A DNA stretch of 64,000 nucleotides from Rhodothermales bacterium (GTDB taxonomy: Bacteria > Bacteroidota > Rhodothermia > Rhodothermales > UBA10348), in assembly GCA_028284865.1 (NCBI GenBank), contig JANQQV010000020.1, positions 62,001 through 126,000 on the forward strand, read 5' to 3'. A model generated the notes under the pieces. It made no database searches, was not told where the DNA came from, and saw only the letters and a program-made list of their open reading frames with translations. Below, one piece after another: positions 41,778-46,645 of this stretch (position 1 is the stretch's first letter; each line of letters starts with the position of its first letter). A program made the position numbers and the translations under genes.

Positions 41778-41789
41778 GATTCATGCTGT

Positions 41790-41816
41790 TAGTGCGCTAG
41801 AAGAAACTGCACTAAT
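41790..41816. promoter_or_regulatory. Inverted repeat 13 bases upstream of the kinase start
   Basis: TTAGTGC and GCACTAA form a perfect 7-bp inverted repeat with a 13-base spacer, very close to the ATG of the kinase at 41777. It could be a protein operator or an RNA stem blocking ribosome access. Confidence 0.35.
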
Positions 41817-41928
41817 CATCGAACACCAAAATCTGCGGTGGTATCGCGGATTGAATCTCTGCCCTATTACACTCCTCTTATTGCCGACAGCCGTAGATGG
41901 TCGCCAGGCTCGGCAAGTAGCGGCCGAA

Positions 41929-41947
41929 TGTAACTGATTGTGTTACA
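41929..41947. promoter_or_regulatory. Dyad TGTAAC-N7-GTTACA overlapping a possible promoter
   Basis: A perfect 6-bp dyad with a 7-base spacer, immediately followed by AATATTTTG. On the plus strand that run resembles a -7/-10 promoter region for the candidate RNA at 41955-42146. On the minus strand it is about 150 bases upstream of the kinase gene. The form is typical of helix-turn-helix operators; the regulator is unknown. Confidence 0.35.
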
Positions 41948-41954
41948 ATATTTT

Positions 41955-42146
41955 GCCCGTTGCAATCGAATCGTCGTTGTGAGCATATCAACGGGGAGTT
42001 TTTCTCTTGCAAAATCAATGCGGAGAATCAGGCAGTTGGGAAATCGCCAAGCGTGATGAGGGATTACGCTCGCTGCGCTCGCGTGCATCCCTGAGTACTC
42101 CTTAGCAATGTGAACCCCGGCCCGCTCTGCGGGCTCTGGGGTTTCT
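41955..42146 (+). ncRNA. Candidate structured non-coding RNA
   Basis: No convincing coding frame was seen on the plus strand across ~190 bases between a promoter-like run (TACAATATTTTG) and a good plus-strand terminator. Internal pairing is consistent with one folded RNA. CGTTGC (41958-41963) pairs with GCAATG (42105-42110) as a closing stem; CGTTG (41975-41979) pairs with CAACG (41989-41993); and GGGAT-ACGC (42060-42069) pairs with GCGT-ATCCC (42081-42091). The length and enclosed shape would suit a 6S-like RNA, but I could not match a known family, so the call stays generic. Confidence 0.35.
42113..42146 (+). terminator. Plus-strand intrinsic terminator
   Basis: AACCCC-GG-CCCGC, loop TCT, GCGGG-CTCT-GGGGTT, then TTCTTTC. 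The U-rich end is on the plus strand only. No plus-strand protein gene precedes it, which is the main reason to suspect a non-coding transcript here. Confidence 0.6.
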
Positions 42147-42188
42147 TTCATGCTCCTCCCGGAGCAAGCTCCGTCCGGACCAAACAAG

Positions 42189-42220
42189 AAACCCCAGCTG
42201 CCTTTTGGCAGCCGGGGTTT
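42189..42220 (-). terminator. Terminator of the tRNA-Ser (and possibly alaS) transcript
   Basis: AAACCCC-GCTGCC hairpin with one mismatch and a 4-5 base loop, beginning about 11 bases past the tRNA 3' end on the minus strand. It ends in TTT-CTTGTTT. It may work in both directions because the other strand also ends in TTT. Confidence 0.6.
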
Positions 42221-42230
42221 ACGTTGCACG

Positions 42231-42317
42231 CGGAGAGGGAGGGATTCGAACCCTCGGTACCCCAAAGGGCACAACGGTTTTCGAGACCGCCCCGTTCGAC
42301 CACTCCGGCACCTCTCC
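42231..42317 (-). tRNA. tRNA-Ser (anticodon CGA)
   Basis: 87-nt class II tRNA on the minus strand. The acceptor stem GGAGAGG/CCTCTCC is perfect with discriminator G. The D arm starts GCCGGAGTGGTCGAACGG. The anticodon arm has CT-CGA-AA between GCGGT and ACCGT. A long variable arm (GTGCCCTTTGGGGTAC) and a T arm with GGTTCGAATCC follow. Anticodon CGA reads UCG serine codons. The 3' CCA is not encoded. It follows alaS by about 107 bases on the same strand and precedes a terminator, so the two may share a transcript. Confidence 0.97.
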
Positions 42318-45478: not shown

Positions 45479-46603
45479 ATGCGTACGAAAGTCATTGCCG
45501 CTTTGCTCGCCGTTCTGACCGCCCTCGGCGGCCTCAACCTGTTCCAGAGCATCAAGAACAAATTGACCCACAACGACCAGGTTCACACCGAAGCGGTTGT
45601 CCTGGCTGAAGATGAAGGGATCACGGTCCGCGAAGAAGGCAATCGCATCGTCATCCGGACATCCGGTGTCGCTGTTTCGCATGCAGAAGCTGATGTCGAT
45701 GTAGACGTGGATACCGACTTCGACTTTGATTTTGAGTTCGCCTTTGATGCCGACGAGGCTTCAAACGACGAGGAAGTCATGATTTCCGAGCGATTCGATG
45801 TCAAAGAGGGCTCGACGCTGATGATCGACATCTCTCACGCTGACGTGGAGATCATCACGGGCAACAGCAACGAGGCCCATGTTGAGGTAACGCTCCACTC
45901 CAACCGCATGAACCGGGCTCGTGAGCGCTTTGAGGACATGAACTGGGAAGTCACGCAGGAAGATGGCGACATCATCGTTACTGCTGATGATCCGAGTGGA
46001 TGGAATAACTGGAATTTCTCTGTGGACGTCCGCGTGCACATCCCGACGCAGTTCAACATCGACATGGAAACGAGTCACGGTGATGTGGATCTCGGCAACC
46101 TTGAAGGCGAGATTGCTGTCAAGACCAGCCACGGCGACGTGGAGATGGGTGACGTGACGAGCAGTCGCATCTGGGTCAAGTCATCCCATGGCGATATCGA
46201 AGGCCGTACCCTGAATGCTGGCATCATCGATCTGCAGACTTCCCATTCGGACATTGAGTTCGACGCCATCGAGTCGAAGGAATTCTCAGCGACCACTTCA
46301 CACGCAGACGTCGAGATTGGCGAACTCTGGGGCGAAACGCGCATCCGCACATCGCACGGCGATGTTCAGGTGATGCTTGCCGATGCTGAAGGCGCTGACA
46401 TCGAGACGGTGCACGGCGACGTAGAGATCCGCATGGTCGAGGGCGCATCGATGGACGTTGACCTTCGCGGTGGTGAAGTCACTGTCGGACGCAATGTCGA
46501 CCTGGTCGGTCGTGTGTCCGAAGACGAAGTCGATGGCGAAATCAACGGCGGTGGCGCCATGCTGCGGGTTCGCACCTCGCACGGCGAAATTGTAGTTCGC
46601 TAG
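45479..46603 (+). CDS. DUF4097-like beta-helix repeat protein with an acidic tract
   Basis: 374 residues with a hydrophobic N terminus ('IAALLAVLTALGGLNLF') acting as signal or anchor. Residues 67-95 form a striking alternating acidic tract ('DVDVDVDTDFDFDFEFAFD'). The rest is a right-handed strand-repeat domain of the DUF4097 (YvlB) type. The motif [T/S/V]-x-H-[G/A/S]-D/E-[V/I] starts at 119, 199, 217, 236, 255, 274, 292, 311 and 367, with an 18-19 residue period across 199-311. Such repeats are structural or binding modules on the cell surface. It is divergent from alaS and ends in a strong terminator. Confidence 0.85.
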   Translation: MRTKVIAALLAVLTALGGLNLFQSIKNKLTHNDQVHTEAVVLAEDEGITVREEGNRIVIRTSGVAVSHAEADVDVDVDTDFDFDFEFAFDADEASNDEEVMISERFDVKEGSTLMIDISHADVEIITGNSNEAHVEVTLHSNRMNRARERFEDMNWEVTQEDGDIIVTADDPSGWNNWNFSVDVRVHIPTQFNIDMETSHGDVDLGNLEGEIAVKTSHGDVEMGDVTSSRIWVKSSHGDIEGRTLNAGIIDLQTSHSDIEFDAIESKEFSATTSHADVEIGELWGETRIRTSHGDVQVMLADAEGADIETVHGDVEIRMVEGASMDVDLRGGEVTVGRNVDLVGRVSEDEVDGEINGGGAMLRVRTSHGEIVVR

Positions 46604-46645
46604 ATAATAAAGCTAGGCTTTCCAAGCTCAGCCACTTGAAACGAG

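Follow-up and report, generated by a model that had tools for sequence, protein, structure and literature searches.

What occupies the roughly 450 bases between a kinase gene and a tRNA-Ser gene in the window, by which we mean the whole analysed stretch of 64,000 nucleotides from a Rhodothermales bacterium? The gap extends from the start of the kinase gene (41777, minus strand) to tRNA-Ser(CGA), and we found no convincing protein gene at 41778-42229, as the initial annotation had stated. That annotation proposed for 41929-42146 a structured, 6S-like RNA read from the plus strand, with its own promoter-like run and terminator. Our verdict is that 41929-42146 is not a plus-strand 6S-like RNA gene and that the locus belongs to a family of structured elements inserted at tRNA 3′ ends. 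Genomes are labelled with G-numbers (G000 being the window's own genome), loci with L-numbers and contigs of G000 with C-numbers. The order on the tRNA strand is tRNA, P1 5′ strand, P2, P3, P4, P1 3′ strand, linker and P5, and the parts of the locus are as follows:

42230-42317, minus strand: tRNA-Ser(CGA), host gene of the element (Rfam/tRNA call; CCA not encoded)
42060-42228, minus strand: whole element of 169 nt, four-way junction plus linker plus P5 (model R1 167.6 bits, model R2 164.2 bits)
42213-42227, minus strand: 5′ strand of P1, starting 3-4 nt past the tRNA discriminator base (from the sequence and pair counts)
42197-42212, minus strand: hairpin P2, GCTGCC-AAAA-GGCAGC, which a1:a2 pairing turns into the terminator hairpin of the tRNA
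42137-42196, minus strand: long hairpin P3, with a purine internal loop GGA/GGA and a CTTG loop
42120-42134, minus strand: hairpin P4, GCCCGC-AGA-GCGGGC
42105-42119, minus strand: 3′ strand of P1
42092-42104, minus strand: linker TAAGGAGTACTCA, kept across the genus
42060-42091, minus strand: hairpin P5, GGGAT..AATCCC, with tandem G.A pairs and a GCA triloop
42053-42065, minus strand: decayed direct repeat of the tRNA-Ser 3′ end, AATCCCTCATCAC vs AATCCCTCCCTCT, alone not above chance
42113-42146, plus strand: alternative a3:a4 pairing of the P3 3′ end, P4 and the P1 3′ strand, formerly described as a plus-strand terminator
41888-41947, minus strand: flank weakly similar to an integron attI-like region of G000 (77% over 60 bp), including the dyad at 41929-41947

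Helices P1 to P4 form a junction nearly free of unpaired bases, and since its strands a1 (P1 5′), a2 (P3 5′), a3 (P3 3′) and a4 (P1 3′) are all C4/G4-like, the junction should be able to branch-migrate; a1:a2 pairing gives the tRNA terminator hairpin and a3:a4 pairing the hairpin formerly assigned to the plus strand. The minimum fold of the window copy as DNA is this same fold (-50.1 kcal/mol, z -6.9, 0 of 200 shuffles as good). With DNA parameters the minus strand of 42060-42230 reaches z -6.9 and its complement z -6.4; the plus-strand fold of 41955-42150 is modest (z -2.0, 6 of 200 shuffles as good).

The fold covaries. Across six sequences, 17 of 59 pairs had changed on both sides, with a score of 0.296 vs 0.144 shuffled and at most 0.103 slid, and in 26 model-aligned sequences, an alignment fitted to the structure and so biased toward it, the same was true of 48 of 59 pairs (288 cells), with a score of 0.490 vs 0.151 shuffled and at most 0.075 slid. 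The 22 model-aligned copies from other families showed, for 49 of 59 pairs, two pair types that differed at both positions and were each present in two rows or more. When copies from different species were compared at one and the same tRNA locus, ten copy pairs showed 40 double changes that kept the pairing, vs 0-5 when slid, together with 62 broken cells; the slid control covers 10 of 11 locus pairs, leaving out L117/L113 (both CGA, the G024 copy being closer to another locus), and including this pair gives 48 double and 22 single changes that kept the pairing, with 70 broken cells. Compensatory changes in relatives had been named by the initial annotation as a check on its structured RNA, and this test was passed strongly; the conserved covarying structure is real, but it belongs to the minus strand and spans 42060-42228, not 41929-42146. 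A peptide read after the AAGGAG of the linker was considered and rejected: the following ATG is not kept (CTG or CTA in L038, L046, L048 and L052), and loop length shifts the frame.

Another check named there, an Rfam scan, gave only tRNA above the gathering threshold of Rfam 15 and nothing credible at a relaxed threshold. The likeness to 6S RNA (RF00013) does not go beyond a size near 190 nt and a closing stem: the model has no match anywhere in G000 (it found 6S RNA in 5 of 14 control genomes), and strand, junction and context all differ. A scan for sigma-70-like promoters returned 0 sites (shuffles 0.3), which leaves the promoter-like run unsupported. The dyad TGTAAC-N7-GTTACA at 41929-41947 is there, but alone it is not above chance, with about 16 perfect 6-bp dyads of fixed 7-base gap expected per 64 kb (64,000/4^6). 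An independent plus-strand non-coding RNA at 41929-42146 could still point to its hairpin and its dyad; it is nevertheless barely credible, given no promoter in the scan and a conserved unit that lies on the other strand with other limits.

The hairpin at 42113-42146 is likewise present, but the scan found no plus-strand terminator in it, only the a3:a4 alternative of the junction arms being formed there. The sole terminator found by the scan lies on the minus strand at 42220-42189, behind tRNA-Ser, the one place where a G+C stem is followed by a T-run, and it accounts for one arm, not for the whole element. Two ordinary terminators back to back, that of the tRNA and one on the opposite strand, would explain this minus-strand site and the hairpin. 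They would not require the covariation of P3, P1 and P5, however, and L199 and L219 retain the fold without a U-tract, while the downstream gene in the window is not convergent; as a full account this explanation is refuted by the covariation and by the match of repeats to their own tRNA (see below), and we consider it very improbable.

A DNA search of G000 gave two more strong copies (C22:87581 and C8:225595), and relatives yielded further copies joined to tRNA-Ser. Owing to the stricter filters applied, the genome counts obtained with the models are lower bounds: R1 matched at least 18 of 114 genomes of the order, every one in the own family, and R2 at least 23 of 244 genomes of the class, comprising 22 of 27 family genomes (the other 5 having no R2 match) and one weak match in another family. 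Over the phylum, R2 matched at least 16 of 394 genomes; at least nine of these, from five families, do not belong to the own order. Phages and plasmids contained no match to the element, and in viral contigs the P5 patterns gave 1 and 0 matches, the one (L261) having half of P5 and no tRNA. We rejected a dispersed REP-like repeat, as the P5 pattern occurs in G000 only at two tRNA-Ser copies (controls 0). A weak both-strand match outside the family, L205 (G047, 1874-2011), has no tRNA nearby and was treated as unrelated; it is possibly an unrelated four-way palindrome. In the openly accessible literature that we searched, we found no description of such an element.

The position of the copies is highly regular. 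Leaving aside overlapping and opposite-strand model matches, 70 of 78 non-overlapping copies start between -4 and +17 nt from a tRNA called by ARAGORN, and in 60 of these 70 the model start is at most 4 nt from the tRNA end. As for the remaining eight, L105 and L130 each lie at the edge of a contig on which the 3′ end of the tRNA can still be seen, L111 and L346 lie behind an element or repeat array, L189 is on a contig stub, L341 and L344 follow a truncated tRNA 3′ part, and L205 has no tRNA. In the own family the host is tRNA-Ser only (51 copies), with all serine tRNA kinds of the family used; elsewhere there are ten tRNA kinds (Pro 4, Ser 3, Lys 2, Val 2, Leu 2, Arg 2, and Asp, Glu, Gln and Phe 1 each). 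As a separate observation, ARAGORN also calls a tRNA-Cys (ACA) at 46552-46632 of the window, which overlaps a 374-aa frame, is absent from the Rfam matches and is probably false. Tandem arrays of the right half (P4, P1 3′ strand, linker and P5) or of P5 alone stand between the full element and the following sequence in L346 (1640-2330), L109 and L200.

G000 has 37 tRNA genes, and copies lie behind three of its four tRNA-Ser genes, the model finding none behind the others. At the fourth, tRNA-Ser(TGA), a 46-kb island has taken the place of the trailer, and at its far end a truncated element follows a copy of the tRNA 3′ end. This island (C22:14410-60820; L216-L218 and L040) has a repeat of the tRNA 3′ end at both ends, attC-like sites inside and a tyrosine recombinase at C22:59389-60639 (minus strand), and the truncated element is a displaced one. 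Among 52 copies, the nearest neighbour was the same isoacceptor in another genome for 26 and another locus of the same genome for 13, and because of this split both inheritance and locus changes seem to occur.

A sign of insertion lies beyond P5. The AATCC at the P5 end resembles the 3′ half of a tRNA T-arm. In many copies the sequence past it repeats the 3′ end of the copy's own tRNA, over as much as 18 bp, and the AATCCC of P5 is also the start of this repeat. In the own family, where 21 of 56 copies were dropped for having no readable AATCC end or tRNA end, 10 of the 35 testable copies scored at least 7, a value reached by at most 1% of flank windows, and the mean was 5.14 vs 3.32 (sd 0.17). 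The match past AATCCC is perfect (12/12) in L111 (TGA), L119 (GCT), L199 (TGA) and L219 (CGA) and near-perfect in L102, L133, L124, L131 and L120; in L108 and L114 the repeat sits behind a second P5. In other families, whose tRNA ends are widely different, the own tRNA fitted best in 8 of 21 copies (mean 6.76 vs 4.35 for other tRNAs), and with the second L346 copy omitted none of 20,000 reassignments was as good. Most copies nevertheless have a decayed or absent repeat (25 of 35 in the own family, 13 of 21 in others). The window copy scores 4, a value matched by 36% of flank windows, and its own repeat being decayed, its reading as a probable insertion rests on the family.

Nested copies tell the same story. 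Behind tRNA-Ser(TGA), G021 carries a new element, an 18-bp repeat and an old element, whereas G017, G024 and G011 have a single element at this tRNA, and of all copies the one at this locus in G024 most resembles the older G021 element (65%). At a tRNA-Lys of G420 an element and its repeat precede a truncated second element, and in L341, L342, L344 and L345 an ordinary terminator follows the repeat (both judged by eye). Presence also varies: between tRNA-Ser(GCT) and hisF there is an element in G005 and G003 and a plain terminator in G025, and at tRNA-Ser(GGA) the element is found in G005 and G000 and degraded in G001. At the family level, two marks of a mobile element are thus seen, a repeat of the host tRNA 3′ end and an occupied site beside its older state (G021 vs G017, G024 and G011). 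Because of the tRNA 3′-end repeats we take the locus for an element rather than a free-standing small RNA gene, and the own-tRNA repeats, the new copies ahead of old ones and the displaced terminators behind them together argue for an insertion element. There is no integrase gene within it, about 170 nt holding no gene, and it is non-autonomous at best.

Mismatches and loops both show that selection acts on one strand, the tRNA-sense strand, in single-stranded form. Folding was restricted to Watson-Crick pairs, so that wobble favours neither strand. In 40 copies of the own family (11 of 51, being opposite-strand model matches, were dropped), mismatches on the tRNA strand were A.G 84, G.T 26, G.G 12, A.A 10, A.C 5, T.T 4 and C.T 3, and 22 copies from other families gave A.G 34, A.C 11, G.T 7, A.A 7, G.G 4, A.T 3 and C.C 1. 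Both sets have an excess of purine-purine mismatches on this strand, but only the own family has a wobble excess, and wobble as proof of RNA was discarded (G.T vs A.C, 26 vs 5 in the own family and 7 vs 11 elsewhere). The strand bias of mismatches and loops likewise led us to reject a symmetric double-stranded cruciform.

As to the molecule, RNA would favour GNRA loops, and CTTG and GAAA loops are stable in RNA as well. Across 54 copies (L205, L189 and overlapping matches left out), c(GNA)g made up 60 of 75 three-base loops (GAA 24, GCA 21, GTA 8, GGA 7) and c(GNNA)g 23 of 31 four-base loops, 12 of them GNRA and 11 not; g(CNNG)c loops numbered 37, with CTTG in 31, and the pattern was repeated in other families. 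Since the loops fit GNA/GNNA and not GNRA, the one loop type on which DNA and RNA rules were compared, we lean, though not firmly, to single-stranded DNA as the selected molecule. GNA and GNNA mini-hairpins with G-C pairs are described as extraordinarily stable as DNA in an excerpt of PMC4686876, and d(cGNNAg) and d(gCNNGc) as selected stable DNA tetraloops in a title cited in PMC8373063.

The main rival is a structured trailer RNA of use to the host. Transcribed together with the tRNA and released from it when the tRNA 3′ end is processed, it might for example control 3′-end processing through the P1 stem, which abuts the acceptor stem, or act as a small RNA. The selected strand being the tRNA-sense one, the compensatory changes made in place at the same tRNA locus (40 vs 0-5) and the model start within 4 nt of the tRNA end (60 of 70 copies) would all suit it. 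Such an RNA does not account for the repeats of the host tRNA tail, the nested and truncated copies and the presence and absence within one genus, nor for the 5 of 27 family genomes without a match; furthermore, the loops obey GNNA, not GNRA, G.U is just 4.8% and 2.7% of standard pairs, and in most copies a terminator-like a1:a2 hairpin precedes P3 (by eye). We regard a trailer RNA as unlikely.

We favour, with about even confidence, a family of gene-less insertion elements of about 170 nt behind tRNA genes, which would be non-autonomous and moved in trans, probably as folded single-stranded DNA and by a tyrosine recombinase. The DNA recombinase acting in trans would most likely be one of the tyrosine recombinases that attach at tRNA 3′ ends, and its substrate, the element folded as a single strand, would be functionally like an attC site. 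P5 would imitate the T-arm and, with the AATCC of the tRNA, mark the junction, and P2 with a1:a2 pairing would give the host tRNA a terminator; because this terminator is supplied, most insertions should be harmless to the tRNA gene. As supporting context, the 46-kb island in tRNA-Ser(TGA) of G000 ends with a tyrosine recombinase bearing phage-integrase and Arm-DNA-binding domains, and tRNA-Ser already serves there as an attachment site. Against a mobile element, no recombinase is tied to it and none lies inside, phages and plasmids gave no match, and orthologous same-locus copies keep compensating, which implies a constraint unexpected of a dead insertion.

The mover of the same insertion element could instead be a transposase, Cas1/casposase-like or of another kind, with a target-site duplication of 17-18 bp. 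The clear repeats match their own tRNA across several tRNA kinds, and casposons too insert at tRNA 3′ ends, with duplications of 14-15 bp according to an excerpt of PMC6977970. Casposons, however, have genes, a homologue of cas1 and inverted repeats at their termini; by eye no terminal inverted repeats were seen in the element, being gene-less it has no cas1-solo gene in cis, and the 5′ half of P5 also suits its own T-stem (by eye), which a pure target duplication leaves unexplained. A transposase of this kind seems to us improbable.

Integrons invite a closer comparison. Like attC sites and gene cassettes, the element probably folds as a single DNA strand, and would likewise keep structure with sequence free and be moved in trans by a tyrosine recombinase; it differs in having no R/L boxes, a four-way junction and not one long hairpin, a position behind tRNAs with a 17-18 bp repeat, and no gene. 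The R″ and R′ boxes of attC read RYYYAAC..GTTRRRY, and by eye none occurs in the element copies, from which the genuine attC of these genomes differ. An integron attachment or docking site used by IntI would agree with the flank in the window that resembles the attI-like region of its own integron, with L189, where the element, an attI-like region and attC cassettes follow each other, with an attC inside the element at tRNA-Ser(TGA) of G010, and with IntI working on folded single strands (PMC2727003, in part). It is at odds with P5 lacking attC boxes, with attC recombining via the bottom strand (PMC2727003, in part) and with an IntI above the cut-off in no more than 13 of the 27 genomes of the family, G020, G023 and G014 among them with 0-1 element each. 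As integron presence does not track element presence, IntI was rejected as the mover on family-wide grounds and an IntI site is kept only as a minor, hardly probable rival.

Among other known systems, tRNA 3′ ends are classic landing sites of genomic islands. Islands, ICEs and prophages integrated there share with the element the intact tRNA 3′ end and its direct repeat at the far side, but the element has 170 nt, no integrase, no gene and heavy structure. MITEs and REP/BIME are also short, gene-less, hairpin-rich and presumably moved in trans; unlike them, the element occurs only behind tRNA genes and is not dispersed, and by eye no terminal inverted repeats were seen in its copies. It may, tentatively and somewhat short of even confidence, represent an unnamed class of Bacteroidota mobile elements, gene-less and of about 170 nt, that is kept as a four-way junction of single-stranded DNA, imitates a T-arm at its end, hops among many tRNA 3′ ends, duplicates their tails and supplies a terminator. 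If so, it would offer a minimal system for the study of how folded DNA is recombined site-specifically and would influence where tRNA transcripts end; if a trailer RNA instead, it would be a widespread unknown RNA linked to tRNA maturation. It escapes gene-based and Rfam-based annotation.

Some observations concern the integrons themselves. Family genomes have an integron integrase above the cut-off in 13 of 27 cases and attC in 22 of 27, and G000 has a chromosomal integron at C25:42769-49214 and C23:449879-456662 (integrase TIGR02249, 409 bits; attC arrays, with 14 attC in the genome). At L189, which seems to be this locus in a related species, the attI-like stretch between the element and the attC cassettes is 74.6% identical over 209 bp to the integron region of G000 (E 3e-31). 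The contig of L189 (JAPPOI010000045.1, deposited as Boseongicola) looks mis-binned: besides the P5 end of the element, the attI-like stretch and the attC cassettes, it contains a gene that in G001 lies behind tRNA-Ser(CGA). Next to the integron integrase (G000:C25:43.9k) there is a further copy of the dyad TGTAAC-N7-GTTACA, and L189 has one with a single change; the dyad is perhaps an operator of integron or cassette promoters.
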